Below are positions 326 to 52,092 of a DNA stretch of 60,064 bases, piece after piece. The notes under the pieces were generated by a model. It was given only the letters and a program-made list of their open reading frames with translations. It made no database searches and was not told the DNA's origin. Within the stretch, counting starts at the first letter, position 1. Each line of letters begins with the position of its first letter. The stretch covers positions 1 to 60,064 of IMG/VR virus record IMGVR_UViG_3300029915_000030. One strand, 5' to 3'. Origin of the DNA: a virus. A program made the position numbers and the translations under genes.

Positions 326-934
326 ATGAACCGTCGTAAGTTCCTTCTCACAGCCGGTGCCGCAGGGGTAACTCTCGCTGTCGCTCCTAAACTCCTTGCC
401 TCCGATAGGGGCTACCACAGCTATGTCTTCCCCCTCGATGCTATGGAGCCTAAGGTGTTCTCTATTGCTATGCTTGCCAACGCCTTCGGAGAAATCCACA
501 AGGACAACCTCCTCGTCGCCAACATGTGGCTGCACCCTGACGATGCCCCGGCATATAATAACGTGATGGCAGCGACTTATAGGGACTATGCTCCTGCCAG
601 CGAGGAATCTTCGGAATTTTTGGGATTCCTGTGGGGTGCCCATGTATGGACTCTGCCCGGTTTGAAGGAACGTGGTACTGTGTGGGTTAGCAGCGACTAC
701 CACAAGAGTCGCGTGAAGCTTGTCGGTCATCGCACTGACCGCACTGGTACCGGACTCATCTACCCTGATTCCAGCCGTGCAACGGATGCGGCCAACGATA
801 CCCACGTCATGAGCACGGTGCGTGACAGCATCCTTACGCTGAGCACCACCTTGCAGTCGTCATGGCGGGTATCCGTAAGACCGGTCAGCAAGTCCTGCCG
901 ACCTGCACCACGGAGGCCGAGAAACAACGGGTGA
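326..934 (+). CDS. Tat-signal protein with capsid-like segments (copy 1)
   Basis: The start at 326 (not the upstream ATG at 293) is preceded by GAGG and places a twin-arginine signal at the N-terminus (NRRKFLL, then a hydrophobic stretch to about residue 25). Two later segments resemble the major capsid protein encoded at 44911: LANAFGEI through HPDD (about residues 50-75; capsid MADGFGQVQ through NPRD) and FLGFLWGA (about residue 98; capsid VMGYLWGA). Two relatives lie at 5314 and 6158. The last 30 residues are Arg/Pro/Ser-rich and look like out-of-frame sequence; a better-looking frame overlaps from about 826 to 987, so a frameshift near the end is possible. Function unknown; export through Tat and capsid ancestry are inferences. 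Confidence 0.75.
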   Translation: MNRRKFLLTAGAAGVTLAVAPKLLASDRGYHSYVFPLDAMEPKVFSIAMLANAFGEIHKDNLLVANMWLHPDDAPAYNNVMAATYRDYAPASEESSEFLGFLWGAHVWTLPGLKERGTVWVSSDYHKSRVKLVGHRTDRTGTGLIYPDSSRATDAANDTHVMSTVRDSILTLSTTLQSSWRVSVRPVSKSCRPAPRRPRNNG

Positions 935-987
935 AAGATGCCATCAAAATCATCCGGGAGCACTGCCAGAATAATATTTCCGAATAA
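862..987 (+). CDS. Possible frameshifted C-terminus of the preceding gene, or small separate ORF
   Basis: This frame is open from 826 and encodes, from the ATG at 862, a 41-residue charged helical peptide (MAGIRKTGQQ..., ending NNISE). Its composition is more protein-like than the overlapping end of the gene at 326. There is no clear ribosome binding site at 862. The simplest reading is that the upstream protein continues here after a one-base shift, by mutation, sequencing error or recoding; a separate small gene is the alternative. Confidence 0.35.
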   Translation: MAGIRKTGQQVLPTCTTEAEKQRVKDAIKIIREHCQNNISE

Positions 988-1001
988 TTCAAAAATAAGT
1001 G

Positions 1002-1029
1002 TTCACTTTTCTGACTTTGTGTGTATTAT
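1002..1029 (+). promoter_or_regulatory. Candidate sigma70-like promoter
   Basis: TTCACT (1002-1007) and TATTAT (1024-1029) are separated by 16 bases, directly ahead of a long structured non-coding leader. The core GTATTAT is shared with candidate promoters near 6712 and 47412, each also ahead of a structured leader. Confidence 0.4.
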
Positions 1030-1039
1030 GTATGTAGAC

Positions 1040-1179
1040 GGTTGGACTGAGGGAGACCTTAGTTCAGCCACCATCTGGGAGGTAAAGTAAAATTTACCTT
1101 CCGGGCCATGCCCTACCTGAGGTCAAACTTGGATAGGGCTCCAAGCCGGAGTGATAGGGCAACCTGTCCTCCGGCACCA
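1040..1179 (+). ncRNA. Structured RNA leader with three successive stems
   Basis: The 374 bases between the genes at 987 and 1362 have no convincing ORF but strong dyads. Stem 1 is 1078-1102 (GGTAAA with TTTACC plus flanking pairs). Stem 2 is 1110-1139 (GCCCTA with TAGGGC). Stem 3 is 1145-1175 (GCCGGAG with CTCCGGC, 7 perfect pairs) and is followed at once by ACCA, like a tRNA acceptor end. A promoter-like element lies just upstream. It could be a small RNA or a regulatory leader; it matches no RNA family I recognise. Confidence 0.5.
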
Positions 1180-1323
1180 AAATACCATAGGAATACCGGA
1201 TTCTGAAAATGCGTCTTTCCGCTCAAACACGAATTACAACTACCACAACGCAAACCAGCGTCTGCGGCTTCGTGTGCGGAGGGATTGAAGACTAACCAGT
1301 CAAAAATTCTTCGATGTATACGA

Positions 1324-1345
1324 GCCGCCCAACAGGGCGGCTTTG
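1324..1345 (+). terminator. Intrinsic terminator-like hairpin
   Basis: GCCGCCC and GGGCGGC (7 pairs) with a 4-base loop, followed by TTTGGTGTTTT. It closes the non-coding leader region and lies 17 bases before the next start codon. The T-run is interrupted, so termination may be partial. Confidence 0.5.
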
Positions 1346-1361
1346 GTGTTTTGGAGAGGGT

Positions 1362-1592
1362 ATGAAAGTCACAGCAAAGATGACGTTAGCAGAACGGTGC
1401 AACCGGGCAATTTTAGAGTTTCGCGGGAGAGGGTACGGTGTCAGCTATCACCGCTATGACCCCTCCGAGTATTCTCTTCTCTTGAACCTGCCCAAGAACA
1501 CTGGAAAGAAATTCGCAGCACGCAACTGGCTCCGCCGTAGAGTCCGCTGTCTCAGAGTAATAGATGGGATACAAGCTCGTTACGGGAGATAA
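1362..1592 (+). CDS. Small basic hypothetical protein
   Basis: 76 residues, rich in Arg and Lys. The ATG at 1362 follows GGAGAGGG and is preferred over the in-frame upstream ATG at 1314, which lies in the terminator region. No domain recognised. The next reading frame begins 2 bases after its stop. Confidence 0.6.
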   Translation: MKVTAKMTLAERCNRAILEFRGRGYGVSYHRYDPSEYSLLLNLPKNTGKKFAARNWLRRRVRCLRVIDGIQARYGR

Positions 1593-1594
1593 GC

Positions 1595-1940
1595 ATGGCA
1601 GCATGGGAAGAGCATTGCAGGGATTGTGACCGCCTCTTGGGCAACAGATGCGAGGCAGTGAACGGGTGGATGGATGACCTGTTCAAGAAGTTCGGCGCTC
1701 CACCGGTTCGCTAGGCACCACTGGCGAGGGGTAGAGGAAGCGGGGCAGAAGTTCGGGCCTCTCGGTCGCACGACGGCGGCGATTCACATCCTCAAGGATT
1801 GTGGCTTCGTCCCGAAGGACAGAGATTGGAAAGAGCAGAAAGTTGACAGCCTCGGAATGTTGGTCGGGGCCGGGTTCAACGGGTACTGGGACCCATGGCA
1901 GTACGATGCAGCAGCAAAGAGTTTGTTAGAGAAGATGTAA
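1595..1940 (+). pseudogene. Hypothetical protein gene split by a frameshift
   Basis: The ATG at 1595 opens a 39-codon frame (Cys-rich start, CRDCDRLLGNRC) that stops at a TAG near 1713. The frame from about 1690 to 1940 continues as convincing protein (RFARHHWRGVEEAG..., ending SLLEKM). Joined by a one-base shift near 1690-1700 the two make one protein of about 115 residues. The downstream ATG at 1674 has no ribosome binding site of its own. Either a genuine mutation or a sequence error. Function unknown. Confidence 0.55.
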
Positions 1941-1945
1941 AGTTT

Positions 1946-2022
1946 GTACCCGTCGCCTAGTGGCTATGGCACTCAGCCGATTACTGAGCATTACGGGGGT
2001 TCGAGTCCCTCCGGGTACACCA
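1946..2022 (+). tRNA. tRNA-Ile(GAT)-like
   Basis: Acceptor GTACCCG pairs with CGGGTAC, then A and an encoded CCA. The anticodon stem CTCAG/CTGAG encloses CCGATTA, giving anticodon GAT. The T-loop is TTCGAGT. Position 33 is C instead of the near-universal T, so identity is slightly uncertain. First of the tRNA cluster, 6 bases after the preceding reading frame. Confidence 0.8.
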
Positions 2023-2024
2023 AA

Positions 2025-2099
2025 TGGCGAGTAGCTCAAAGGAAGAGCGCATTCCTGATAAGAATGAGGTTGGGATTTCAAAATTCCCCTCGCCAACCA
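2025..2099 (+). tRNA. tRNA-Ile(GAT)
   Basis: Acceptor TGGCGAG pairs with CTCGCCA, then A and encoded CCA. D-arm GCTC...GAGC. Anticodon stem CATTC/GAATG with loop CTGATAA, anticodon GAT. The T-stem has a mismatch at its loop-closing pair. It lies only 2 bases after the first tRNA; two genes with the same anticodon side by side is redundant unless one is modified or altered in identity. Confidence 0.85.
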
Positions 2100-2155
2100 G
2101 CTTAGTGGGTTAGAGTAAAAGTAAGTATAAAAATTGAGCTATAGAGTTCTGATAC

Positions 2156-2677
2156 ATGAGAACTTGTACACTTTGTAGCTCAGACATACCACTCACGGTG
2201 GTTATCGACGGGGTTGAACGGAACCTCCAACGTCGAAAGTATTGCTTAGTCTGCTCCCCGTTCGGGGCACACAACACTCGGTCTTTACGCCGGGATGACG
2301 ATGGAAGTCTTGTCGTTGTAAGTGTAAAGCGTGAAGGTGCTTCACTAATCTGTACCCGTTGTTTTAGGGTGTATGTGTTCGCCAAGAAGCAGGGTCACAC
2401 CCTGACTTTATGCAACTCTTGTGTTGCTAATAGGCAACGGACTCGGGTAAAGAGACGTTGTGTTGAATACAAAGGGGGTAAGTGCCAATCGTGCGGATAT
2501 TGTAAGTCAATGCGGGTTCTAAGTTTCCACCATAGAGACCCAGAACAAAAGGAGTTTAGCATCGCAGGGAAGATGACGTGGGCTTGGGCTCGGTTGATGA
2601 AGGAGTTGGATAAGTGCGACCTCCTCTGTGCCAACTGCCATCTTGAAACCCATGACGAAGAATTTACATTAGGCTAG
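2156..2677 (+). CDS. HNH homing endonuclease
   Basis: 173 residues. Several CxxC pairs lie in the N-terminal half, then an HNH nuclease core near the C-terminus: SFHHRDP, then CDLLCANCHLETH. This is typical of free-standing phage HNH endonucleases, which cut DNA and drive their own spread. It sits between tRNA genes and its stop codon overlaps the first 5 bases of the next tRNA. The start codon lies in the loop of a 6-bp hairpin (AGTTCT/AGAACT around 2150-2169), likely limiting translation. Confidence 0.85.
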   Translation: MRTCTLCSSDIPLTVVIDGVERNLQRRKYCLVCSPFGAHNTRSLRRDDDGSLVVVSVKREGASLICTRCFRVYVFAKKQGHTLTLCNSCVANRQRTRVKRRCVEYKGGKCQSCGYCKSMRVLSFHHRDPEQKEFSIAGKMTWAWARLMKELDKCDLLCANCHLETHDEEFTLG

Positions 2678-2755
2678 GTTGGCTCAGTGGCGACGGCACC
2701 GCTTTCGTAAAGCGGTATACAAACACCGAGGGTTCGAGTCCCTCACCTAGCTCCA
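2673..2755 (+). tRNA. tRNA-Thr(CGT) with long variable region
   Basis: Acceptor GCTAGGT pairs with ACCTAGC, discriminator T, encoded CCA. Anticodon stem CCGCT/AGCGG with loop TTCGTAA, anticodon CGT. The variable region is TATACAAACACC, 12 bases instead of the 4-5 normal for threonine tRNAs. The G1-C72 and C2-G71 pairs fit threonine identity. The upstream HNH gene's stop overlaps the 5' end. Confidence 0.85.
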
Positions 2756-2776
2756 GTTTCGCAGTATTAGGTGAGT

Positions 2777-2974
2777 ATGGAAAACTTGGATGAGGCCGCA
2801 GCAGCAATCGCTCAGCAGATGCTGGAGAACCTTCGCCACAACGTAGCAGAGGACAAGCGGCGACGTGCTCTGCTTCACGGAGTCACCTACTCCGAAGATG
2901 TTGATGAGTTTTTTGAAAAAGCGCACGAGACTGCACAGGAACTTGATAAGCAGATTAGTCGCTGTTGTAAGTAA
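2777..2974 (+). CDS. Small acidic helical hypothetical protein
   Basis: About 65 residues, strongly helical (MENLDEAAAAIAQQMLENLR...), ending with Cys-Cys-Lys. The ATG at 2777 follows AGGTGAG; a GTG at 2771 in frame is a possible alternative. It lies between two tRNA genes with a few bases on each side. No family recognised. Confidence 0.55.
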   Translation: MENLDEAAAAIAQQMLENLRHNVAEDKRRRALLHGVTYSEDVDEFFEKAHETAQELDKQISRCCK

Positions 2975-2980
2975 AGAAAG

Positions 2981-3056
2981 GCCGGTTAAGCATATATGGA
3001 TGTGTATTTGCTTGGTAAGCAAAAGGCAGAGGGTTCGAGTCCCTCAACCGGCTCCA
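2981..3056 (+). tRNA. tRNA-Thr(GGT)
   Basis: Acceptor GCCGGTT pairs with AACCGGC, discriminator T, encoded CCA. Anticodon stem TTTGC/GCAAA with loop TTGGTAA, anticodon GGT. The variable region is of normal size, unlike the other two threonine tRNAs here. T-loop TTCGAGT. Confidence 0.85.
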
Positions 3057-3059
3057 TTT

Positions 3060-3274
3060 TTAGCGGGACTTACCCTCCGCATAACGAACTCGACGCCAAT
3101 GCCTACCGTTGCCTCGGTTCTTCCCCTTTTGACGTAGGTAGTTGTATATCGCAGTTTGGGCAGTTGCACCGCAAGTTATTACGATGGTTGTTCATGTAAT
3201 TTCCATCAATATGGTCACTTGTTGGAGCAGAACTTTGGATTACTCGTGTCGGTATCACATTGAAGGCATTTCAT
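3060..3274 (-). pseudogene. Decayed HNH homing endonuclease remnant
   Basis: On the minus strand from 3274 the sequence reads MKCLQCDTDTSNPKFCSNK, the zinc-binding start common in phage HNH proteins, then a stop. It jumps to another frame reading HIDGNYMNNHRNNLRCNCPNC, the HNH core, and after an extra A in a short A-run to a third frame reading KNRGNGRHWRRVRYAEGK and a stop at 3060. The middle of the protein is missing. This is a deleted and frameshifted endonuclease gene, opposite in strand to its neighbours. Confidence 0.8.
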
Positions 3275-3324
3275 AAACCACTCCCTGATTATGGAAGTGG
3301 TATTGGAGAAATTGAAAGGGATGT

Positions 3325-3924
3325 ATGGAGCAGTACCCAAGTATCGAAGGAAGTTCCAAAGCCCCTCTAGGTAAGCAGTGCATCGCTTTCTACAAGTACG
3401 ATGGCTCGAACCTTCGTTGGGAGTGGAACCCCAAGAAGGGTTGGTTCAAGTTTGGTACCCGACATGAGTTGTTCGACAAGAGCAACCCGGTCTTCGGTGA
3501 AGCGATTCCGGTCTTCATGGATACCATGGCAGATGAGTTGACTCGCCGGGTGAAGGACTACGACCGGAACTGCCAGAGGACCACGGTCTTCACAGAGTTC
3601 TTCGGGGACTCAAGTTTCGCGGGTGTGCATACGCCGGGGGAGCCTAAGCAGCTTCGCTTGTTCGATGTGTACCTGTTCAAGAAGGGGATGATGTCGCCCC
3701 GGCAGTTTCTCAAGCAGTACGGAGACCTGCCATACGCGGCTGAAGTGGTTTACGAGGGCAACCTCAACAAGCAGTTCGTTGATGATGTCCGCAGCGGAAA
3801 GTATCCAGTGTGGGAAGGCGTCGTCGCCAAGGGTGACGATTTCATGGTCAAGATAAAGACCGATGCCTTCTTCAAGAAGTTGAACGAAGTATACGGAACG
3901 AACTATAGGCTGTACTGGGAGTGA
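3325..3924 (+). CDS. Small RNA/DNA ligase-like nucleotidyltransferase
   Basis: 199 residues carrying the motifs of the covalent nucleotidyltransferase (ligase) superfamily: KYDGSN at residues 24-29 (the Lys would be adenylated), FTEFFG (motif III-like), EGVVAK at about 163 (motif IV) and MVKIKT at about 174 (motif V). The size fits a bare adenylation domain of the T4 Rnl2-like class without a C-terminal domain. Lying in the tRNA cluster it probably seals nicked tRNAs or other RNA, but a DNA substrate is possible. The ATG at 3325 follows GAAAGGG. Confidence 0.75.
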   Translation: MEQYPSIEGSSKAPLGKQCIAFYKYDGSNLRWEWNPKKGWFKFGTRHELFDKSNPVFGEAIPVFMDTMADELTRRVKDYDRNCQRTTVFTEFFGDSSFAGVHTPGEPKQLRLFDVYLFKKGMMSPRQFLKQYGDLPYAAEVVYEGNLNKQFVDDVRSGKYPVWEGVVAKGDDFMVKIKTDAFFKKLNEVYGTNYRLYWE

Positions 3925-3927
3925 GCT

Positions 3928-4161
3928 ATGTTGATTGCGTGTCCAGCACCCGGTTGTGCAGATTATCGGCGTCATCACGAAGACCCTGACACCCCACGTG
4001 GGCCTCAGATGGTTGAGATGCCGGACGACCTGAGTCATCCTGTGTTCTGCTCTATCACGTGTGCAGCGTACGCCGGGTTCTACAACATTCGCGATAACAA
4101 GATTCGTGAGCGGAGCAACTGGAAGTTTGAGTGGCCTCCGAAGGATTTGGTCACAGCATAA
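3928..4161 (+). CDS. Hypothetical protein with Cys pairs
   Basis: 77 residues, 3 bases after the ligase stop, so translated with it. It has CPAPGC near the start and CSITC in the middle, which could bind zinc. It ends 5 bases before tRNA-Gln. No family recognised. Confidence 0.6.
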   Translation: MLIACPAPGCADYRRHHEDPDTPRGPQMVEMPDDLSHPVFCSITCAAYAGFYNIRDNKIRERSNWKFEWPPKDLVTA

Positions 4162-4166
4162 GTTAT

Positions 4167-4253
4167 TGGGGAGTCGTACCAATGGTAGGTCAAGGGCCTT
4201 TGAAGCCCCCGAGCGTAAGCTCATTGCAGGTTCGAATCCTGCCTCCCCAACCA
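4167..4253 (+). tRNA. tRNA-Gln(TTG) with a long variable arm
   Basis: Acceptor TGGGGAG pairs with CTCCCCA, discriminator A, encoded CCA. The D-arm resembles phage glutamine tRNAs. The anticodon loop CTTTGAA is closed by GGGC/GCCC, giving anticodon TTG; the outermost stem pair is a mismatch. A variable arm with its own hairpin (GAGC GTAA GCTC, within 4211-4222) is present. Such an arm is normal for Ser, Leu and Tyr but not for Gln. T-loop TTCGAAT. Confidence 0.75.
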
Positions 4254-4259
4254 AGATTC

Positions 4260-4332
4260 GGGCACATTGGTTCACCGTGGCACCCTGCCAAGGGAAACGG
4301 TGATTCGGGTTCAACTCCCGAAGTGCCCACCA
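4260..4332 (+). tRNA. tRNA-Gly(GCC), poorly paired anticodon stem
   Basis: Acceptor GGGCACA pairs with AGTGCCC for six of seven positions, discriminator A, encoded CCA. T-arm TCGGG TTCAACT CCCGA is perfect. The likely anticodon loop CTGCCAA gives GCC (glycine), but the anticodon stem is weak, so the gene may be degenerate or fold unusually. Confidence 0.6.
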
Positions 4333-4340
4333 AGATAAAG

Positions 4341-4407
4341 TCCCATATATGGAGCACTAACGGCTTTAGTGCTTCATATATGAGTCCAATGAGCCCTATC
4401 GGACTCA
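4341..4407 (+). promoter_or_regulatory. Tandem hairpins in the leader of the next gene
   Basis: A long imperfect hairpin at 4345-4381 (ATATATGGAGCACTAA against TTTAGTGCTTCATATAT, about 15 of 17 pairs) is followed by a 7-bp hairpin TGAGTCC/GGACTCA (4381-4407). They lie between the tRNAs and the ATG at 4422 and could process or stabilise the transcript. Neither has a T-run. Confidence 0.5.
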
Positions 4408-4421
4408 TACACGAGGCCAGC

Positions 4422-4730
4422 ATGAAATTGAAGATGTACGTTTTGGTGAAGGGCTCCATCCCGGTAGGTAACGCCATCGTGGCCGCAGCACACGGGCCTC
4501 TGTCGCTCTACCTGAACTTCCCCACCGACCCGGATATGGTCAAGTGGCTGCAAACGTCCTTCGCCAAGGTTGTGTGCAAGGTAACCGACGAGGAGTTCGA
4601 GAAGGCGAAGGAAGTGCCGAAGCATCAAGTCATCACCGAGTCCACGTTGAACGGACAAGAAGTTGCAATCGTTTTCATACCGAGAGAAGAGTACCCCAAG
4701 AACTTTGGATTCTTCCCGAAGTATAAGTAA
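4422..4730 (+). CDS. Peptidyl-tRNA hydrolase 2-like protein
   Basis: 102 residues. MYVLVKGSIPVGNAIVAAAHG then SLYLNFP, and FAKVVCKVTDEEFEKAKE, followed by a TLNGQEVAI strand, follow the order of PTH2-family proteins (N-terminal strand, small-residue helix, KVVxKV strand). PTH2 releases peptides from stalled peptidyl-tRNA in the cytoplasm. The assignment rests on pattern and on the tRNA-rich context; key catalytic residues cannot be confirmed by eye. The ATG at 4422 follows GAGG. Confidence 0.55.
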   Translation: MKLKMYVLVKGSIPVGNAIVAAAHGPLSLYLNFPTDPDMVKWLQTSFAKVVCKVTDEEFEKAKEVPKHQVITESTLNGQEVAIVFIPREEYPKNFGFFPKYK

Positions 4731-4738
4731 GAGGATAC

Positions 4739-5008
4739 ATGACCGATTTGAAGATTCAATGCATGGGCGTACCGGAGTCTGTGGGGTTTGTATCCACGGA
4801 CATTGAGAACTACAAGGGGAGATGTGAAAACTCGGCTGAGTTCTGGTGCCCTCCCGGCACAGGGGGTTGGTCGAGTGATTATCAAGACCACTCCTTCGAT
4901 GCGGGAGCGTTCTACTGTTCAGAATGTCATGCAAGGCACGAGGTTTGGAATAAAGAAGTCAGGGAGAGCTACCCAGATGTACCGGTACTCTCTTTTGTAA
5001 AAATGTAA
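4739..5008 (+). CDS. Hypothetical protein
   Basis: 89 residues, 8 bases after the PTH2-like gene, ATG preceded by AAGAGGA. It has scattered cysteines (CENSAEFWC, YCSECH) that might bind zinc. It stops 6 bases before tRNA-Thr(TGT). No family recognised. Confidence 0.65.
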   Translation: MTDLKIQCMGVPESVGFVSTDIENYKGRCENSAEFWCPPGTGGWSSDYQDHSFDAGAFYCSECHARHEVWNKEVRESYPDVPVLSFVKM

Positions 5009-5014
5009 AGGTAT

Positions 5015-5095
5015 GCTACGATGGCTGAGTGGTCGAATGCACCGCACTTGTAATGCGGCATACAAACACCGGGGGTTCGAATCCCTCTCGTAGCT
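5015..5095 (+). tRNA. tRNA-Thr(TGT) with long variable region
   Basis: Acceptor GCTACGA pairs with TCGTAGC, discriminator T, no encoded CCA. Anticodon stem CCGCA/TGCGG with loop CTTGTAA, anticodon TGT. The variable region CATACAAACACC nearly repeats that of tRNA-Thr(CGT) at 2673, so the two are related. The D-arm GGCTGAGTGGTCGAA looks like that of class II (Ser/Leu) tRNAs, while the G1-C72 and C2-G71 pairs fit threonine. Confidence 0.85.
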
Positions 5096-5104
5096 CTTTC
5101 GTGA

Positions 5105-5156
5105 CTATCAACCTCTTTAGTAGAGGTTAGCTCCTCAGCATCTGAGAGGTTGATAG
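5105..5156 (+). promoter_or_regulatory. Alternative hairpins ahead of an endonuclease remnant
   Basis: CTATCAACCTCT (5105-5116) pairs perfectly with AGAGGTTGATAG (5145-5156), covering the GAGAGG that would serve the ATG at 5161. A competing hairpin AACCTCT/AGAGGTT (5110-5128) uses the same left arm, so the two folds exclude each other, as in an attenuator. Confidence 0.55.
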
Positions 5157-5160
5157 GTTC

Positions 5161-5247
5161 ATGAGAAACTATAAGAAAGCTACAACCCGGTTTTACACAG
5201 TGTACCGGACACAGAACATCCTTAACGGAAGGTACTATTTTGGGTAG
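5161..5247 (+). pseudogene. GIY-YIG endonuclease remnant (N-terminus only)
   Basis: The ATG at 5161 opens 28 codons ending FYTVYRTQNILNGRYYFG, which matches the GIY-YIG start of the intact endonuclease at 36284 (FTVYKITNLLNSRYYLG). A TAG follows at once. The rest of the gene is missing and the sequence runs directly into a tRNA 3' half, so a deletion removed most of the endonuclease and the front of a tRNA. Confidence 0.75.
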
Positions 5248-5301
5248 GACACGGGTCTTTGAAGCCTTGAACTGGGGTTCGACTCCCTGCGCCGGAACTA
5301 G
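5243..5301 (+). pseudogene. tRNA 3'-half remnant
   Basis: GGTAGGACAC, GGGTCTTTGAAGCC, then T-arm CTGGGGTTCGACTCCCTG and CGCCGGA resemble the D-loop end, anticodon arm and 3' half of a tRNA like tRNA-Gln(TTG) at 4167. The matching 5' acceptor strand is absent. It joins directly to the endonuclease remnant. Confidence 0.6.
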
Positions 5302-5313
5302 AAATGAGGAATC

Positions 5314-5925
5314 ATGTTAGTATCGCGTCGAAATTTTCTCCAAACATCGGTGGCTCTCGCCCTCGTCTCTCCGCTCACAGCGTTGGCGAAGTACGTTCCC
5401 ACACCCCAGCCTATCAAGCTGACGCCGGGGCTATCTCCTGAAAGTATCAAGGACGCCTTCGACAAGATGGAAGCTCATGGGGATCGGGCGGAGGTTCTTT
5501 ACATCAACCCCGACAATCTTCTCTGGCTTGAAGACACCATTGGTTGGGAGGATTTTATGGGGGAGTCTCGATACAGCAGAGGGGCTAAGAAGTCATGGAG
5601 TAAGGGTCGTCACTTCAACGGTAGTCCCGGCGATATGGTCTGTGCGAGTTATCACTACACCGAGGGTCGCCCGGTCATGGGGTACATGTGGGGAGCCATC
5701 GTGGTGGGTGACCTCGACCTCCCCATGGATGAGATTCGTGTTCGTACCGAACGCCGGTACGTCGGAGACAGGCCGAAGAGTTACAGGGCGTCCGCACCTG
5801 TGGACTGGGTTGAGCTTTCTACTAAGGGGTTCTTCCATCACACTGCGACCTATACTCGCAAGCCCACTGATTGGAACGTCGTGCTGTTCGTGAACGAGAA
5901 AGTTGGGGAGCAGTTCTTCGCATGA
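5314..5925 (+). CDS. Tat-signal protein with capsid-like segments (copy 2)
   Basis: 203 residues. The N-terminus has a twin-arginine motif (SRRNFLQ) and a hydrophobic stretch ending TALA at about residue 26. Segments from about residue 40 (SPESIKDAFDKM through INPDN) and 121 (VMGYMWGA) align in order with the major capsid protein at 44911 (NSMADGFGQV through FNPRD; VMGYLWGA). About 60 other residues separate them. ATG preceded by TGAGGA. It overlaps the next gene by ATGA, so it heads a four-gene operon (5314-6680). Tat export and capsid ancestry are inferred; function unknown. Confidence 0.8.
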   Translation: MLVSRRNFLQTSVALALVSPLTALAKYVPTPQPIKLTPGLSPESIKDAFDKMEAHGDRAEVLYINPDNLLWLEDTIGWEDFMGESRYSRGAKKSWSKGRHFNGSPGDMVCASYHYTEGRPVMGYMWGAIVVGDLDLPMDEIRVRTERRYVGDRPKSYRASAPVDWVELSTKGFFHHTATYTRKPTDWNVVLFVNEKVGEQFFA

Positions 5926-6161
5926 GAGAAAAAGAAAAACATCTGCAAGCGATTGGTGACTGGGCCGGTACCCTGCCTCCAGAGGCATGGACTCCCGGAG
6001 CCCCCACCGATGAATCGAAGGAACGCTTCTTCGCAGTGAAGACTCAGACTGGTCGTATTCTCACCGGCACAGGTCGAGCATTCCGAATCATAAACTGCTG
6101 GAAGATTGCAGCCCAGCCGAAGTATGGTCCCATCACGCACTTCATGGAGGCAGGAGATTGA
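5922..6161 (+). CDS. Small hypothetical protein, operon gene 2
   Basis: 79 residues, starting at the ATG that overlaps the preceding stop (ATGA), so translationally coupled. The start region is charged (MREKEKHLQAIGDW). The middle, KTQTGRILTGTGRAFRIIN, may be beta-rich. It lies between two Tat-signal capsid-like genes. No family recognised. Confidence 0.65.
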   Translation: MREKEKHLQAIGDWAGTLPPEAWTPGAPTDESKERFFAVKTQTGRILTGTGRAFRIINCWKIAAQPKYGPITHFMEAGD

Positions 6162-6475
6162 ACCGTAGAAACTTTTTAGGCACCATGGTTGCAGTAGCGG
6201 TCGCGGCGGTACTCCCGACGCCAGCACCTGTTCCTGTTGACCTTGAGTTGCTGAAGCAGCGTGGCGTGATGGGGTATTTGTGGAACGTACCAACCCCCCA
6301 GCCCACTCCGGGTGCAATTACCCTTGAGGGTATGGCTGACGCCTTCGCAGAAGTCCAACGGTATGACCTTGCACCTACGTTCATGTTCGTCAACCCTCGG
6401 GTGTATAAAGAGTGGAACCCTGCGGGGTACGCAGAATTAGTGAGGTTACAGAATGAAACTTCTAATCCTACATAG
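6158..6475 (+). CDS. Tat-signal protein with capsid segments in swapped order (copy 3)
   Basis: 105 residues from a TTG at 6158, preceded by GGAGG and AGGAG and overlapping the previous stop. An NRRNFLG twin-arginine motif and hydrophobic stretch end near PTPAPVP. LLKQRGVMGYLW (residues 31-42) closely matches capsid KLLKTGVMGYLW. GMADAFAEVQRYDL through NPRVY (58-84) closely matches capsid SMADGFGQVQRHDL through NPRDY. In the capsid the second segment comes first (about residues 180-215, against 225-240), so the order is reversed here, as in a circular permutation. Function unknown. Confidence 0.75.
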   Translation: MNRRNFLGTMVAVAVAAVLPTPAPVPVDLELLKQRGVMGYLWNVPTPQPTPGAITLEGMADAFAEVQRYDLAPTFMFVNPRVYKEWNPAGYAELVRLQNETSNPT

Positions 6476-43272: not shown

Positions 43273-43950
43273 CTAGGAGTCTAGTACCTCGTCTAGGGTC
43301 AGCCCAATTTCTTCTTCGACAATCTCAGACATTCTCTTCCAGTGTAGGCACGCCTTACGGTGCCCACCGTATACGCCTTTGGTAACTTGCTCAAACTCAT
43401 TCCCGCAGTCAGGGCATAGGTAGTCCTTCAGTTTCTTGTTTTCAATGTCATTGACGCGACGGGCTACCAACGCCTGTTTACTACGTCTAGCTTGGCCTAT
43501 AGGTGTGGTCTCATCCCACCAAGCAGCCATTTTCTTCCGCTGAATTATAGGCTTTGGCTTACCCTTGAAGAGGGCTGACGCAACTGCTCTCTGTTTTTTA
43601 GACGGAATCCGACCCATGGCCTTTTGTCTAATTTTTTCACGCACCTCCTCAGTTCCGGTAACCCCCTCACCTCCATAGGTCATATTGTACCCATATTTGG
43701 TGCTGTGAGTACCTAGTAACAAAATCCACATCTTCTCCAACTCGCTCAACTGTTCTGAGTTATTACATTCTGCGATAGTCTGTACATGAAAAGCGTCAAC
43801 CCCATACTTTCGAATAGCTCGGTATAGATGGTAGGGCAACCCCATCTTTGCGTTCTGAAGGTGGGTTTCCCACCGTCCCTTGACGGTTTTCGAGGTTTTT
43901 CCAATGTAGGCTTTGCCGTTTATCGTGTTGGTAACTAGGTATATGAACAT
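43273..43950 (-). CDS. GIY-YIG homing endonuclease, minus strand
   Basis: 225 residues from ATG at 43950; a longer GTG frame to 43971 is less likely, as the domain begins MFIYLVTNTINGKAYIGKT. Then HLYRAIRKYG, ELEKMWILLLGTHSTKYGYN, YGGEG and a C-terminal zinc-like DYLCPDCGNEF...H...C. A dyad GAAC/GTTC spans its start region. It lies about 220 bases before the group I intron-bearing gene but reads away from it. Confidence 0.87.
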   Translation of the reverse strand: MFIYLVTNTINGKAYIGKTSKTVKGRWETHLQNAKMGLPYHLYRAIRKYGVDAFHVQTIAECNNSEQLSELEKMWILLLGTHSTKYGYNMTYGGEGVTGTEEVREKIRQKAMGRIPSKKQRAVASALFKGKPKPIIQRKKMAAWWDETTPIGQARRSKQALVARRVNDIENKKLKDYLCPDCGNEFEQVTKGVYGGHRKACLHWKRMSEIVEEEIGLTLDEVLDS

Positions 43951-44154
43951 ACTAAGGTATAGGTAGTTCACTTATTTATTATGGACAGAAAAACGGGCAT
44001 AAAATTAAAATTTAATGTAAGTCTAGCTTTCTCCCAATACCCACCCCATAGGTATGTGAAGTAAGTCACTGCTCTATAGTTCAACGGTCGGTCTCCTCGA
44101 CTAAGAATTGGAGTGAGGGCTAATTCAAAACTTCTACATGGAGAAAAAGTCAAA

Positions 44155-44910: not shown

Positions 44911-45867
44911 ATGGCTAATCTTTCTCGCACACAGCAGCAGACCGCGATGCTCGGACAGTTGCTTAAGACTGCCGGTGGTCGTCAGAAGCTTGCTGCCTCG
45001 CTTGGCCCGTCACTTCGTCGTCGTCGTGACTATATGTCCATCGCCCGTAAGGCGCTGATGGTTGAGACTTTGCCCGATGGTGCTCTGCCCATCTACGATA
45101 AGGAATTTGACACTGCTGCTATGACTGTGGGCTCGGCCCCCGGTGGTAGCTTCGTGGAAGCCTTCGTCGTCGGTGAAGAAGGTGGTGACATCGTTCGCGT
45201 GACAAAGCCGAAGCGTGTTACGGTTCCGACGTTCGAAATCGTATCCAACCCGATGATTCCTATCACCCAGATTAAGGAACGCCGCTTCGACCTCGTGGCC
45301 CGTTCGCTTAACTTGGCGAAGGCTGAAGTCGGTGCAGCAGAAGACGGCTACGTTTTCACCCTGTTTGACGCGGTTGCAACTGCCGCAGCAGGCAAGGCGC
45401 AGACCGACCCCGTGTACAACGTGGACATCGCGATTTCGGCTCCTATCGACATCAACAGCATGGCTGATGGTTTCGGTCAGGTTCAGCGTCACGACCTCTC
45501 GGTGGCTTTCTGCTTCTTCAACCCCCGCGACTACACTGACTTGCTCAAGTGGACACAGCAGAACATCGACCGTGAGACACAGCGCAAGCTCTTGAAGACC
45601 GGTGTTATGGGTTACCTGTGGGGCGCAACTCTGCTCCAGTCCCGTAAGGTTGGTTATGGCTGCGTGTACATTCTGGCCGACGCTGAGTTCCTCGGTGTCA
45701 TCCCAGAGCGTATCCCGCTAACCGTCATGAGTGCAGACCGTCCTGACCTCCGCCAGATTGGTTTCTCCATCTTCGAGAACCTCGGCTTCTTGGTCTTCAA
45801 CCCGTCCGGCGTACAGCGTCTGACTGTAAGTGGTCGCTTCGCTTCCCCGAACGTAGGCGAGAACTAA
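44911..45867 (+). CDS. Major capsid protein, HK97-like fold
   Basis: 318 residues. N-terminal helix (QQTAMLGQLLKTAGG), an extended segment (VTKPKRVTVPTFEIV), the helical ERRFDLVARSLNLAKAE, then MADGFGQVQRHDL, FFNPRDY and GVMGYLWGATL, and finally IPERIPLTVM and FSIFENLGFLVFNPSGVQRL. Order and content fit HK97-type capsid subunits. Preceded by the decoration gene and followed by a terminator. The MADGF and GYLWGA segments recur in three small Tat-signal proteins (326, 5314, 6158). Confidence 0.85.
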   Translation: MANLSRTQQQTAMLGQLLKTAGGRQKLAASLGPSLRRRRDYMSIARKALMVETLPDGALPIYDKEFDTAAMTVGSAPGGSFVEAFVVGEEGGDIVRVTKPKRVTVPTFEIVSNPMIPITQIKERRFDLVARSLNLAKAEVGAAEDGYVFTLFDAVATAAAGKAQTDPVYNVDIAISAPIDINSMADGFGQVQRHDLSVAFCFFNPRDYTDLLKWTQQNIDRETQRKLLKTGVMGYLWGATLLQSRKVGYGCVYILADAEFLGVIPERIPLTVMSADRPDLRQIGFSIFENLGFLVFNPSGVQRLTVSGRFASPNVGEN

Positions 45868-45889: not shown

Positions 45890-45925
45890 AAGGGACTGAG
45901 AGAAATCTCAGTCCCTTCGCTTTTT
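45890..45925 (+). terminator. Intrinsic terminator after the capsid gene
   Basis: AAGGGACTGAGA and TCTCAGTCCCTT (12 pairs, GAAA loop), then CGCTTTTT. The next gene begins 11 bases later. Confidence 0.88.
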
Positions 45926-45935
45926 GGGTATTAGT

Positions 45936-47369
45936 ATGGATATGCTGGGTATGCAGTGGAACCGACTTCGTCTTGACCCTCAGCAGGAGAACCTACCTCT
46001 TAATCTTAGGGTGTCTCATACGAAGTATCGGTTCGTGTGCTCCTGCGGTGGAACAAAAGAAATATCGTGGGCTTCTGTGCTGCGAGGGTTATCCAAGTCA
46101 TGTGGTTGTCTGGTAAAAGAGAGTCGCCAGAATCGTATCCCCAGTATGGTGGGCAGGAAATTCGGACGGCTTCTAGTTATAACATTAGACCACCAACGTA
46201 ACGAGGGGTCGTATAACGGTCAGTCATTCTGGCAGTGCTCTTGTGAATGTGGGGGCATGGCACTGGTATCCACTGCTCACTTGAATAGTGGACACACGTC
46301 TTCATGTGGTTGTTACATGAGAGAACAAGCCACACTCGCTAACTTCAAGGACATAGAAGGGCAGCGGTTCGGCGCTCTTACGACAACGACTGTACATGGA
46401 GTGGGTCAGGGGGGGAAGTACCAGTGGAATGTGACTTGTGATTGCGGGAACACGTCAGTGGTTTACGGCGACTCCCTCGTACAAGGACTGATTAAGTCCT
46501 GTGGATGTCACCGAATGGGTATGATGGCGAACTCTCCAGCCACCCATATTGCCGATTTCATTCGTAACGAATACCACGTTCCGGTAGAGATGGAAGTCCC
46601 TTTGTCCTCTTTGGTTCCCCAGTTTTCCAGACGACATACAGTGGATATCTACGTTCCTTCGGCCTCGTTAGCTATTGAGTACCATGGACTGATATGGCAC
46701 TCGGAGAGATACCTTCAAGGGTCTAAAGACGCCGATAAGTTTCAGTGGTTACAACAGGGCGCAACCCGCCTTCTCCAGATTTATCAGGATGAGTGGAATG
46801 AGAAACCTGATGTAGTTAAGGCACTCGTACGTTCGATGATTCAACCCCGGAGTGGGAAGCGCATCAAGCCGGTTTTTGCTATCCATCATGAAACTCCATT
46901 TGAAGCTCGAACCTTTCTAGATGCGTACCATTACCTCGGAGCCGCATCCGGTGGCCTGACGGTGACTGCCCACCATGGTACCCAACTTGTGGGTGTATGG
47001 GTTTTTATGAAACGTGAAGAGGGTGTCATCCTGTGGCATCGGGCTAGTTGGAATCATGAATATAAAGCATGGAATCCTCATGAAAAGGCTCTTCATCTAG
47101 CTCTTCCTGAGCTACGCTCTATGGGATTCAAGCGAATGGTCACCTTTAGTGATAATCGGTTTCACACGGGTGGGCTCTATGGAAAGCTGGGGTTCACATT
47201 CGAAGAGGAGTTAAAGCCGGATTACTCGTACACCAACGGTTCAGTTCGTAAAAGCAAGTACGCTCTAAGGGTCAAGGCAGGCATGGATGAGAAATCCGAA
47301 GCGGAAGCCAAGGGATGGTATCGTATTTGGGATAGCGGGAAGAAACGCTTCTCACTGAATATTAATTAG
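45936..47369 (+). CDS. Vsr-like homing endonuclease with zinc repeats
   Basis: 477 residues. Three N-terminal modules with CSCGG/CGC, CSCECGG/CGC and CDCGN/CGC (to about residue 195) look like zinc-binding units. Next, HTVDIYVPSASLAIEYHG, then GATRLLQIYQDEW suit a Vsr-like PD-(D/E)xK nuclease. A C-terminal part (AIHHETPFEARTFLDAYHYLG, GVWVFMKREEG, FKRMVTFSDNRFHTGG) resembles a GNAT-like domain attached to some phage endonucleases. Inserted right after the capsid gene. Confidence 0.8.
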   Translation: MDMLGMQWNRLRLDPQQENLPLNLRVSHTKYRFVCSCGGTKEISWASVLRGLSKSCGCLVKESRQNRIPSMVGRKFGRLLVITLDHQRNEGSYNGQSFWQCSCECGGMALVSTAHLNSGHTSSCGCYMREQATLANFKDIEGQRFGALTTTTVHGVGQGGKYQWNVTCDCGNTSVVYGDSLVQGLIKSCGCHRMGMMANSPATHIADFIRNEYHVPVEMEVPLSSLVPQFSRRHTVDIYVPSASLAIEYHGLIWHSERYLQGSKDADKFQWLQQGATRLLQIYQDEWNEKPDVVKALVRSMIQPRSGKRIKPVFAIHHETPFEARTFLDAYHYLGAASGGLTVTAHHGTQLVGVWVFMKREEGVILWHRASWNHEYKAWNPHEKALHLALPELRSMGFKRMVTFSDNRFHTGGLYGKLGFTFEEELKPDYSYTNGSVRKSKYALRVKAGMDEKSEAEAKGWYRIWDSGKKRFSLNIN

Positions 47370-49620: not shown

Positions 49621-52092
49621 ATGGCTTCCTTTATCACCATCTCACTCGGCAACATCAGCTACCCGCAAACTAAAGTGGCGATTAGCGTACCCGAACTTGT
49701 GAGCCAGACGAATTCTTTTAGTATCAAGCGTCGTCCCGGCTGTACTCCCTCCCTGCTCGACTCGAACCCGAAGCAGTTGTTTCTTCGCTACAACGTTAAG
49801 TGCCGTGAGTCCTACTCAGACCCTGCCGGTCACGACGTGACGGTGAAGTTTGACGTGGACAAGGTGGAGGATACTCAGAACGCCAACGACCTTGATGTGA
49901 AGCTTAATTGTAGCTGCCCTGCCCATCTCTACTGGGGGGCTCAGTGGAACCTTCACCAGCGAGATGCCCTGCTGGGTGAGCCACGCCCGGAACTTACTGC
50001 TCCTACGAAGCGGCTTGACCTACGTAAGAATTTTGTTTTATGCGTAGCCCCCGGAACCCGCGTCCTGATGGGGGATGGTACTGAAAAACTGATTGAAAAT
50101 GTACAGGTGGGGGATTGGGTTGTCACTCATAAAGGGCGTGCTCGTAAAGTTACTCATGTTTCTGGACGACCTGCACATGTTGGAGAGATAGCTCGGGAGG
50201 TTAGAGCTAAAGGGGCATCCGAACCCCTGATTGTATCTAAAGAGCACCCACTAGCTGTTGTGCGAGGAAATGAAACCTGCTTCTGTGGCTGTAAAGGTTC
50301 ACTGCCCCTCGGTTATAGGGGGGTAAAGTGGGGGCGTAAGTTCTTGCCGGGTCACCACCGTAATCGTCCTTCTCGAAAACTCTCTGAGGAAGCAATAGCT
50401 GAGATACATTCAAGTATAGAAAATCAGTACACTCTGGCTGAGAGGTATGGGGTTAGTCAGGGCACTATATCCCGAGTGCAAAACCGGGTCGCCCATGTGG
50501 GCGATCCTGAAATTGAAGACTGCTCACAAGGCAAGTTGGGGTGGGTTGAATCGGATAAATTGGAGTTTCACGAGTACCTGTTTTTCCCAAAAATACAATG
50601 GGATGGAGGCACTGAAGTTGATTCCAACTTTGCTTCTTTGCTGGGGTATTATTTGGCAGAAGGTAGCCCAATATATAGAAAGGGAATCCCGAATAAGGTC
50701 AAGTCAGGCAGACCCACCACAAAAGGAGTGGTATGCGATATAAACGGGGTAACCTCTCGTGTATGGGGGGTAAACTTTACGATTAATCAGGACGAGGCCG
50801 AAACTCTTGGGCAGGATATCCAGTCCAAATTGTTTGGGGTTCTCGGGGCTGAAGCTGATATTCAAATTAAGTTTCGCAACTATGGGGGGAAAAAGTGGCT
50901 CAATGTCATTGTCAATGACGGTAAGTTTGCGGCTAAGATGATTCAATTGGCGGGGTGCGGCTCCCTTACGAAGCGCCTCGCTCCTGATGTGTTTAAGTGG
51001 AACACAGAGGCCATTCAAGCCCTTGTGTCATCTTACGCTTTGGGGGATGGGCATTTTGATGCTTCGGGGCAACAATATGTGTATTCAATCTCTCCTCATG
51101 TTGTATCCCAAATATCTACCATGCTGTATAGCATGGGTATTTGGCATGGGCGTCTCCACCAAGATTGGCGGGGTAAAAAGGAGGGGGTTAGAAAGAAAAA
51201 CAGGTATTTCCGCCTTTACTGGAATTACAAACAGTACCCCCAGCTTCTTGATTTGATGAGGGGTAGGTTGCGTACTCATGTTATCGACCAGTTGAATACA
51301 GGTCTTCCTAACCAAGAAACCGATGTATGGCAAGATGGGTTTACTAGAGTGCTTCACTCAGCGAATGATGTTGATGCCCCGGAATATTTTCACGATTTGA
51401 CCGTGGATGAAGATGAATCATTTATAGCTAATGGTGTGGTCGTACACAATTGCAAGCACGAAAAGGCTGTGCTGGAACGTATCCTACCCTCTGTGCAGCA
51501 CAACATTCAGAACATTATCCGTGAGAATACGGTTAAACGGAACAAGGACAAACAACAGCCCACGGAGAAGTCGGAGAAACTGAAGAAGGAACAGGACGCG
51601 ATGAAGAAGCGTCAGGAGATAAAGAAGCTCCGCGAGAAGAAAAACAAGAGCATCCAACAAAAGCTCATCGATGCCCTGCGTGAACAGGAAGAAGGTAAGA
51701 AGGCTCCCGAAGAGGAAGAAGTCCCCGGTGTTGTCGAACGTAATGAGAACGCGACAGAACCCTTGGTTGTGGACACGCCGAAGACTGAGGATGTGTCCAA
51801 GGAAGAGCCGGAGGGGGAAGACGACCTCAACGCTATGGTGGAGAACGAAGAACATAAGCTTGAGCAACAGGAGCACGACAAGATAAAGAAGGAACCCCAC
51901 TTGCATAAGGGGCTCCCCTATGAGACTGAGGCTGAGAAGGCAGAGCATGGACACAACGTTCCAACGGACGACGACCTGTTGAGCACCATGCGTAAAACCA
52001 AAGAACAGGTTGAACAGAAGATGAAGAAACGCAAGCAGACTTCACTAGAGATGAAACTGCTGTCTATGTTGGTGGGGGATGACGATGTTTAG
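49621..52092 (+). CDS. SWIM-type zinc protein interrupted by an intein
   Basis: 823 residues; after splicing 353. The N-extein (residues 1-140) is beta-rich with CSCPAH near 97, and the C-extein begins CKHEKAVLE, together a CxC...CxH SWIM zinc site. The first Cys after the intein both completes splicing and is a predicted zinc ligand. The remaining C-extein is a long charged coiled coil. The virion role is unknown; position among appendage genes suggests assembly or tail function. ATG in the late block. Confidence 0.75.
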   Translation: MASFITISLGNISYPQTKVAISVPELVSQTNSFSIKRRPGCTPSLLDSNPKQLFLRYNVKCRESYSDPAGHDVTVKFDVDKVEDTQNANDLDVKLNCSCPAHLYWGAQWNLHQRDALLGEPRPELTAPTKRLDLRKNFVLCVAPGTRVLMGDGTEKLIENVQVGDWVVTHKGRARKVTHVSGRPAHVGEIAREVRAKGASEPLIVSKEHPLAVVRGNETCFCGCKGSLPLGYRGVKWGRKFLPGHHRNRPSRKLSEEAIAEIHSSIENQYTLAERYGVSQGTISRVQNRVAHVGDPEIEDCSQGKLGWVESDKLEFHEYLFFPKIQWDGGTEVDSNFASLLGYYLAEGSPIYRKGIPNKVKSGRPTTKGVVCDINGVTSRVWGVNFTINQDEAETLGQDIQSKLFGVLGAEADIQIKFRNYGGKKWLNVIVNDGKFAAKMIQLAGCGSLTKRLAPDVFKWNTEAIQALVSSYALGDGHFDASGQQYVYSISPHVVSQISTMLYSMGIWHGRLHQDWRGKKEGVRKKNRYFRLYWNYKQYPQLLDLMRGRLRTHVIDQLNTGLPNQETDVWQDGFTRVLHSANDVDAPEYFHDLTVDEDESFIANGVVVHNCKHEKAVLERILPSVQHNIQNIIRENTVKRNKDKQQPTEKSEKLKKEQDAMKKRQEIKKLREKKNKSIQQKLIDALREQEEGKKAPEEEEVPGVVERNENATEPLVVDTPKTEDVSKEEPEGEDDLNAMVENEEHKLEQQEHDKIKKEPHLHKGLPYETEAEKAEHGHNVPTDDDLLSTMRKTKEQVEQKMKKRKQTSLEMKLLSMLVGDDDV
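50041..51450 (+). mobile_element. Intein with LAGLIDADG homing endonuclease
   Basis: 470 residues (141-610 of the host protein). Begins CVAPGTRVLMGDG (block A), then KEHPLAVV (block B). Endonuclease motifs LLGYYLAEGSP and LVSSYALGDGHFD follow, and it ends FHDLTVDEDESFIANGVVVHN before Cys (blocks F and G). An HTH-like insert (LAERYGVSQGTISRVQNR) lies between. Canonical C1 and terminal Asn suggest active splicing. Confidence 0.92.

Follow-up and report, generated by a model that had tools for sequence, protein, structure and literature searches.

Encapsulins re-use the HK97 fold of phage capsid proteins as whole-fold cytoplasmic shells and are not known to carry a twin-arginine translocation (Tat) signal. 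Here we describe three small genes, P1, P2 and P3, in a 60,064-base virus record from IMG/VR (IMGVR_UViG_3300029915_000030; the window, i.e., the whole stretch of DNA analysed), whose products very probably combine a Tat signal with pieces of the HK97-type major capsid protein encoded in the same window. The closest described protein is the HK97-fold capsid protein of the group that includes Tunturi_5 and phage G, for which a structure has been solved (Gp27, PDB 6wkk). Sequences of its A-domain, P-domain strand, N-arm and C-terminal strand recur in the proteins described here, one of which (T6) contains most of the capsid protein. In contrast to the HK97-fold capsid, P1-P3 have 105-203 residues, lack the full fold and start with a Tat signal, and P3, together with gp172 of Tunturi_5 and T7b of a 238-kb phage, carries its pieces in permuted order.

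CapRel, a defence protein that senses the major capsid protein, contacts the P-domain sheet, the spine helix and the A-domain loops according to an AlphaFold model supported by hydrogen-deuterium exchange and escape mutants (PMC9712102), and by fold anatomy these are the kinds of stretch that are copied in these phages. The same article cites capsid-sensing immunity by Lit with the Gol peptide. CapRel is the host's sensor, whereas the passages of that article considered here mention no capsid mimic that is made by a phage and equipped with an export signal. In Tat hitchhiker export (HybOC, PaoABC), a protein that lacks a signal crosses the membrane together with a partner that has a Tat signal (PMC4273604). 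Those hitchhikers are host enzymes, not phage proteins, and that a captured immune protein might be exported in the same way is what we infer here by analogy. The initial annotation knew of no precedent for a phage that exports capsid-derived fragments through the host Tat system. Among the matches listed in searches of open-access full text for phage Tat proteins with capsid links, capsid decoys and jumbo phage paralogues, none described the present pairing (preprints and subscription journals may do so), and neither twin-arginine nor signal peptide occurred in the available part of the main text of the Tunturi paper (PMC11924767).

Capsid pieces and Tat signals of P1, P2 and P3

The major capsid protein of the window matched phrog_2522 (major head protein, E 4.6e-42) and phage G Gp27 (PDB 6wkk, E 1.2e-52), and was 72.6% identical to its counterpart in Tunturi_5 and 35.6% identical to that in Bacillus phage G. 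Tunturi_5 has a genome of 308,711 bases and was isolated on the soil acidobacterium Tunturiibacter psychrotolerans. A search of bacterial assemblies with the capsid gene, meant to link the phage to a host, gave 61 pattern matches and 0 relatives; therefore, the assignment of Acidobacteriota as hosts rests on Tunturi_5. A 231-kb contig (G001) represents the same phage as the window, and its copies of P1, P2 and P3 showed 0 differences in 609, 612 and 318 bases, respectively.

To compare the three products with capsid proteins, signals were stripped and Smith-Waterman scores were set against those of shuffled sequences. With the window capsid protein, P1 scored 67 and P3 scored 87, each reached by 0/1000 shuffles, and P2 scored 49, which was reached by 3/1000, 2/1000 and 0/500 shuffles in separate runs; P2 scored 64 with the Tunturi_5 capsid protein (0/500). 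The hhalign comparison with a capsid alignment without P1-P3 rows (A3) revealed E-values of 3.1e-5, 1.1e-4 and 3.5e-7 for P1, P2 and P3, and the capsid-like segments that the initial annotation had claimed for them were borne out. Two Tat proteins without capsid similarity, T5b and T33b, gave 0.26 and 0.017 as controls, the second over the signal only. P1 and P2 are rows of a further alignment, A1, and T6 is a row of A3, and matches of these proteins to those profiles are circular and were not used as evidence. P1 and P2 aligned only to approximately capsid residues 168-270, and P3 to residues 179-210 and 227-237; we take the shared stretch to be the axial (A) domain, one structural unit, from the anatomy of the HK97 fold. 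None of the three had the N-arm, E-loop, P-domain and A-domain together. As only part of the fold was aligned, P1-P3 are not capsid proteins as such, and they likewise carry only part of the whole HK97 fold that characterizes an encapsulin.

AlphaFold models of P1 and P2 had low mean predicted local distance difference test (pLDDT) values of 50.6 and 54.2. In ten-residue blocks, the A-domain core reached 56-75 in P1 and 66-80 in P2, where it surrounded a low insertion (38-46). The best Foldseek matches of both models were HK97-fold capsids (E 0.36 for P1 and 0.034 for P2). The best Z-scores in VIA-align were 6.9 and 7.3, values that may mean only a common arrangement according to the warning of the tool, and by our own count 42 (P1) and 48 (P2) of the 50 listed entries were capsids or encapsulins. 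The unrelated fold that the initial annotation had named as speaking against it did not appear. Four of the nine rows of the alignment behind the models were capsid segments, and hence this weak best match is agreement rather than independent proof.

The twin-arginine starts described in the initial annotation were confirmed in all three products as a twin-arginine motif with a hydrophobic N-terminal stretch. Relative to the curated TIGR01409 cut-off of 16.7 bits (NCBIfam), P1 (18.1) and P3 (17.3) were above and P2 (12.7) was below, and all three (15.6, 15.8 and 19.9 bits for P1, P2 and P3) were under the 22.7-bit cut-off of PF10518 (Pfam). P1 and P2 start with ATG and P3 with TTG; P3 is preceded by a GGAGG site, and P1 and P2 by plausible GAGG-type sites. 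By eye, P3 and gp172 lacked a good signal-peptidase site. Overall, the identity of these proteins as Tat signals joined to capsid pieces is very probable, and their targeting to the Tat pathway is probable from the signal sequences. The coordinates are collected in Table 1.

Table 1. Positions of P1, P2, P3 and the capsid gene in the window.
Feature	Positions	Strand	Evidence
P1: Tat signal and capsid A-domain piece (residues 34-105 ~ capsid 168-239)	326..934	+	
P1 Tat signal, residues 1-27, end by eye	326..406	+	TIGR01409 18.1 bits vs cut-off 16.7
P1 A-domain piece	425..640	+	score 67, 0/1000 shuffles; hhalign 3.1e-5
P2: Tat signal, A-domain piece with insertion, unassigned C-terminal part	5314..5925	+	
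P2 Tat signal, residues 1-26, end by eye	5314..5391	+	PF10518 15.8 bits; TIGR01409 12.7 bits, below cut-off
P2 A-domain piece, residues 35-155	5416..5778	+	hhalign 1.1e-4
P3: Tat signal and two permuted capsid pieces; start codon TTG	6158..6475	+	
P3 first piece ~ capsid 227-237 (LLKTGVMGYLW)	6251..6283	+	0/2000 shuffles
P3 second piece ~ capsid 179-210 (MADAF...FVNPRVY)	6308..6418	+	hhalign 3.5e-7; 0/2000 shuffles
Major capsid protein, HK97 type	44911..45867	+	phrog_2522 and phage G Gp27 matches
Capsid residues 168-257, copied in P1, P2, P3 and T7c (238-kb phage)	45412..45681	+	sequence comparison
Capsid residues 100-126 (PKRVTVPTFEI...KERRF), copied in T1d (outside window) and Tunturi_5 gp172	45208..45288	+	

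In IMG/VR scans, which reach close relatives only, the matches to P1, to P2 and to P3 were each confined to two contigs, both of the same phage. Among annotated phages at E up to 10, P2 had no match and P1 had one (E 7, a Helicobacter phage record). P3 matched eight records: the capsid genes of Tunturi_5 (7e-4) and LR745208 (E 1) and six mycobacteriophages (E 6-10). We also observed, in the region 751-987, that the tail of P1 is unlike the rest of the protein and that an overlapping frame at 862-987 (MAGIRKTGQQVLPTC...) has a more protein-like appearance. This might reflect a frameshift or a short gene that overlaps P1; the P1 DNA is identical in G001.

Occurrence in related phages

Of 163 capsid relatives, 80 were kept, with capsid proteins 88-100% identical to that of the window. 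Profiles A1, A3 and PF10518 were used for 26 of them and A1 only for 25, and the remaining 29, short contigs, were searched by motif in fetched stretches. The main profile search set comprised 29 records (26 IMG/VR contigs and three named phages). All 25 records of the A1-only set showed the capsid gene and nothing else.

The pairing of a Tat signal with a capsid piece recurs firmly in four phages and weakly in a fifth; the count is four because three further records, G002 (with P1-P3), G027 (the T7 genes) and G028 (T6), repeat genes of phages already counted. The largest of these proteins, T6, was found in a 456-kb phage (G006). It has 365 residues, begins MQRRNFLRGLLLAPLAGLFPTFTWAE and has an AGGAGG-type site upstream; it covers most of the capsid protein and matches phrog_2522 (4.4e-16). 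Aligned over 320 positions with the true capsid protein that G006 also encodes, T6 is 43% identical (E 3.8e-76). The 238-kb phage (G007) contains three such genes: T7c combines a Tat signal with the A-domain (E 1.1e-5, hhalign 1.4e-7), T7b combines one with the N-arm (E 1.9e-4, hhalign 4.1e-6), and T7a has a Tat signal and a weak 16-residue match reached by 2/1000 shuffles (hhalign 0.02). In Tunturi_5, gp172 (T5, XOB77615.1) has a Tat signal followed by a C-terminal capsid stretch and then by the VPTFEI stretch (E 1.6e-9). The phage of the window has a fourth gene of this kind, T1d (G001 146922-147179), which joins the VPTFEI stretch (E 2.5e-8) to a Tat signal. The fifth phage (G011) has T11, a Tat protein with a weak match (hhalign 0.025; 25/1000 and 68/2000 shuffles). 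The hhalign values of T11 and T7a were no better than those of the controls and did not cover the expected stretch, and gp219 and gp310 of Tunturi_5 were also weak (4/1000 and 26/1000 shuffles). The capsid parts in use vary: some of these proteins carry the A-domain, some the N-arm and some the P-domain strand together with the beginning of the spine helix, and T6 has most of the capsid protein.

Comparison of T1d and gp172 revealed 42% identity over their length including the signal, with TRRQFF and a downstream WM pair common to both. The agreement was 13/30 in the signal region, 5/25 in the middle and 17/29 in the capsid stretch. A third member was not found in 32 records or in IMG/VR. Gene order was little shared, as 2/35 frames around T1d matched Tunturi_5, the nearer at approximately 13 kb from gp172. 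We conclude that accessory genes in which a predicted Tat signal is fused to capsid pieces occur in jumbo phages of the Tunturi_5 group.

Seven distinct phages of the first group exceed 200 kb (G001, G004-G008 and Tunturi_5); six of them have a piece at E <1e-3, and G004 is weak. The smaller, probably incomplete records of this group showed the capsid gene only, except G002 (same phage) and, weakly, G011. Some pieces stand apart from any Tat signal. This is clear for two A-domain pieces, N8 (G008, 1.1e-11) and N6 (G006, 4.9e-10); others are an N-arm piece in G005 (7.7e-7), one beside N6 in G006 (0.0065) and a C-terminal piece in G004 (0.021). Profile search of phage G and LR745208 revealed the capsid gene only.

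A second clade has at least 80 records, of which 25 were searched. One of these, the more distant 619-kb G033, had extra pieces, namely an N-arm piece (6.3e-8), an A-domain piece (2.7e-7) and weaker ones; in the other 24 (54 to 376 kb), nothing besides the capsid gene matched at E up to 1. The G033 A-domain and N-arm pieces (241843-242007 and 218915-219058, minus strand) lie in frames with cysteine-rich CxxCxGxG-like zinc-ribbon stretches. With these putative zinc ribbons, the Tat signal is not the only kind of sequence to which capsid pieces are attached. In addition, the capsid N-arm motif occurs nearly exactly (AASLSQPLRTRRDYG) at G033:315261-315311 (minus strand) within an unrelated 188-residue frame, a short match with E 0.05.

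Tat proteins without capsid similarity were also found, namely T33a, T33b and T33c in G033 and T5b in Tunturi_5 (117114-117689, minus strand). In comparison with the capsid protein, 152, 925, 924 and 335 of 1000 shuffles, respectively, reached their scores. These four rule out that every Tat protein of these phages is capsid-derived. One of the three in G033 directly adjoins a capsid A-domain piece.

Specificity of the association

At E <0.01, PF10518 retrieved only P1, P2 and P3 (in G001 and G002), T6 and T7a from the 29 records; at E up to 10 it added a 36-residue G014 frame (0.066) and T11 (2.5). We then scanned 14,060 open reading frames (ORFs) from seven genomes (G001, G004, G006, G007, G008, G011 and Tunturi_5) with a Tat pattern, which 12 ORFs passed. 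Eight were clear capsid-linked proteins (P1, P2, P3, T1d, T5, T6, T7b and T7c), T7a and T11 were weak, and two G008 frames (G008:39631 and G008:4869) are taken for chance frames. T5b falls outside the 12, having RRKL rather than RRxF, and G033 does not belong to the seven-genome set. Seven non-capsid ORFs matched a hidden Markov model (HMM) of true capsid proteins below an independent E-value (iE) of 1e-3, and five of these had a Tat signal (hypergeometric 3.6e-15, a test that takes ORFs as independent, which relatives are not). The initial annotation had interpreted the genes as capsid-derived fragments exported by a phage, perhaps as decoys, superinfection factors or receptor proteins. The joining of Tat signal and capsid piece proved real, firm in four phages and statistically tied; its use is a more tentative matter, considered in the Discussion.

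As a fragment control, we built HMMs of 55 core families, each present in at least four of the seven genomes, and excluded ORFs within 4 kb of a family member. The capsid family had six small partial copies in five of the seven genomes, the most genomes of any core family. The next-best family had copies in three genomes and, in our own reading, looks like a free lysozyme-type domain; 12/55 families had any small partial copy. Other repeats within G001, G006, G007 and G008 read to us as mostly homing endonucleases, tail repeats and small domain families. The gene set of this repeat survey, picked longest first, had an antisense frame in the place of P3. Short stretches of an 830-residue core protein (G001:202481) were also observed within different frames at G006:177508-177900 and Tunturi_5 50075-51133, a possible second case of scattered core-protein pieces.

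Divergence and order of the pieces

Nine pieces (T1d, T5, P3, P1, T7b, T7c, T6, N6 and N8; P2 and T7a are outside this set) were compared with the capsid gene of their own phage. The proportion of synonymous differences (pS) was 0.59-0.90 and that of nonsynonymous differences (pN) 0.18-0.48, with pN/pS ratios of 0.21-0.70 that overstate the constraint on the pieces, as the capsid lineage is constrained too. In T1d, 74% of residues were kept over the 27 codons shared with the capsid at a pS of 0.85. The pieces are not recent debris, as divergence at synonymous sites greatly exceeds that of the protein.

P1 and P2 keep the capsid order. In three proteins, a later capsid stretch comes first: 227-237 before 179-210 in P3, 267-296 before approximately 93-120 in gp172 (Tunturi_5 numbering), and 96-118 before 20-63 in T7b (G007 numbering). 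When the parts were tested alone, the numbers of 2000 shuffles reaching the score were 0 and 0 for the first and second parts of P3, 0 for the first part of gp172, and 1 and 0 for the two parts of T7b; the second part of gp172 rests on its E of 1.6e-9. Such an order is not given by simple truncation.

The pieces follow the capsid of their own phage only in part. T5 scored best with its own capsid protein (115 vs 103 or less), and for T1d, P1, T7b and T7c the first-group capsids outscored that of Tunturi_5. For P2 (64 vs 49), P3 (93 vs 87), T7a (54 vs 47) and N6 (127 vs 120), the Tunturi_5 capsid gave a higher score than the capsid of the phage that carries the piece, and therefore there is no simple tracking of the own capsid.

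Genomic context

Six tRNA genes (two Ile, three Thr and one Gln) lie among small frames at 1946-5096 of the window. The T7 genes, T6 and N8 are within a few kb of tRNA genes and N6 is not, and no tRNA genes were found in the annotated stretch around gp172. Among the tRNA genes of the window, the frame at 2156-2677 appears HNH-like by eye, and the 199-residue frame at 3325-3924, with KYDGSN and EGVVAKG motifs, resembles an RNA ligase. From their motifs, we take the frames flanking the capsid gene (43273-43971 and 45924-47369) to be homing-endonuclease-like (GIY-YIG-like, and HNH or VSR-like).

Discussion

The gene class described here is real and recurrent; the case for the identity of its products is strong, and use of the Tat pathway is likely. 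As to function, our leading but tentative reading is a capsid-mimic decoy with Tat export, which may be the role of these proteins although the odds are against it. The capsid pieces would mimic the capsid protein and capture a host protein that detects it when newly synthesised. This host protein would most likely be a capsid sensor in defence, like CapRel, and its activating contact would stay incomplete. The Tat signal would then direct the pair to the Tat translocase; the captured protein would either stay at the membrane or be exported together with the mimic as a hitchhiker. That the Tat pathway would in this way become an anti-immunity weapon, with tagged capsid mimics dragging cytoplasmic sensors to the membrane or out of the cytoplasm, is a more doubtful proposition, again drawn from analogy. 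The decoy reading fits best because different capsid parts are used, stay capsid-like and vary between phages as counter-defence genes do. It is also supported by the copied stretches, the A-domain and the P-domain strand plus the beginning of the spine helix, which by fold anatomy are the parts that CapRel contacts.

Several points weigh against a decoy. The match to the CapRel contacts is by fold anatomy, not by alignment. No capsid sensor is known in these hosts, for which no search of defence families was made. P1-P3 were found in no other phage by searches reaching close relatives only. Some capsid pieces lack a Tat signal, N6 and N8 clearly and others by profile, and P2, P3, T7a and N6 prefer the capsid of Tunturi_5 to their own. 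Moreover, the quality control of the Tat pathway prefers cargo that is folded, and a protein of 85 residues with a single capsid strand could fail to fold.

It is almost equally conceivable, at a similarly tentative level, that the capsid ancestry is incidental: a capsid paralogue would have gained a Tat signal, its product would have been re-used in the envelope to block superinfection or change the host surface, and the fragments would be its worn-down descendants. T6, a Tat-tagged paralogue 43% identical to the capsid protein of its phage, would be a natural ancestor. Proximity to tRNA genes, in apparent variable islands, is common to most of the genes; divergence is wide, and for several pieces the closest capsid is not that of the same phage. 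Wear from one ancestor is nevertheless not an easy fit, because separate Tat signals precede different capsid parts within one phage (the N-arm in T7b and the A-domain in T7c), three proteins are permuted, and the P-domain stretch of T1d is 74% identical to the capsid.

A membrane tether for head assembly, in which the Tat-like helix would anchor a capsid piece that binds nascent capsomers and nucleates or docks proheads, seems rather unlikely. Capsid pieces could bind capsid protein, and P3 and gp172, without a good signal-peptidase site, could stay anchored. An assembly factor would be expected to be conserved and to lie near the head genes, whereas P1-P3 are far from the capsid gene and, as noted, confined to one phage in searches of close relatives. 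No convincing Tat gene was found in G004, G008 or G005 (the last searched by profile in full and by pattern in approximately 387 of 463 kb), and Tat would place the piece outside the cytoplasm.

Interference with co-infecting relatives is slightly less probable still. The pieces would poison or sequester the capsid protein of competitors, and the Tat signal would remove the complex. With 88-100% capsid identity among the 80 kept relatives, a piece could act across relatives, and the higher scores of P2, P3, T7a and N6 with the Tunturi_5 capsid, as well as the pieces without a Tat signal, would be in keeping with such a role. The same pieces would bind the capsid protein of their own phage as well, and nothing here shows what spares self.

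We regard it as improbable that these are debris, i.e., capsid gene fragments trapped in tRNA islands with frames left open by accident. The fragments are partial and shuffled and other stretches also recur within these genomes, but the Tat association, the conserved protein over diverged synonymous sites and the whole-length similarity of T1d and gp172 argue otherwise. Chance similarity of short motifs, coupled with chance RR-hydrophobic starts, could account for the modest match of P2 to the window capsid (2-3/1000 shuffles) and for the weak T11, T7a, gp219 and gp310, yet it is already contradicted by the shuffle and profile tests of P1, P3, T1d, T5, T6, T7b and T7c and is exceedingly improbable.

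The repeated joining of capsid pieces and Tat signals defines a class of phage genes. As Tunturi_5 has been isolated and its host is cultivated, gp172 is open to direct testing. If the proteins are mimics, as the capsid-mimic decoy reading proposes, the pieces would reveal which capsid surfaces are watched by bacteria, in hosts whose defences are uncharacterised, and they would show a route by which a phage removes sensors.

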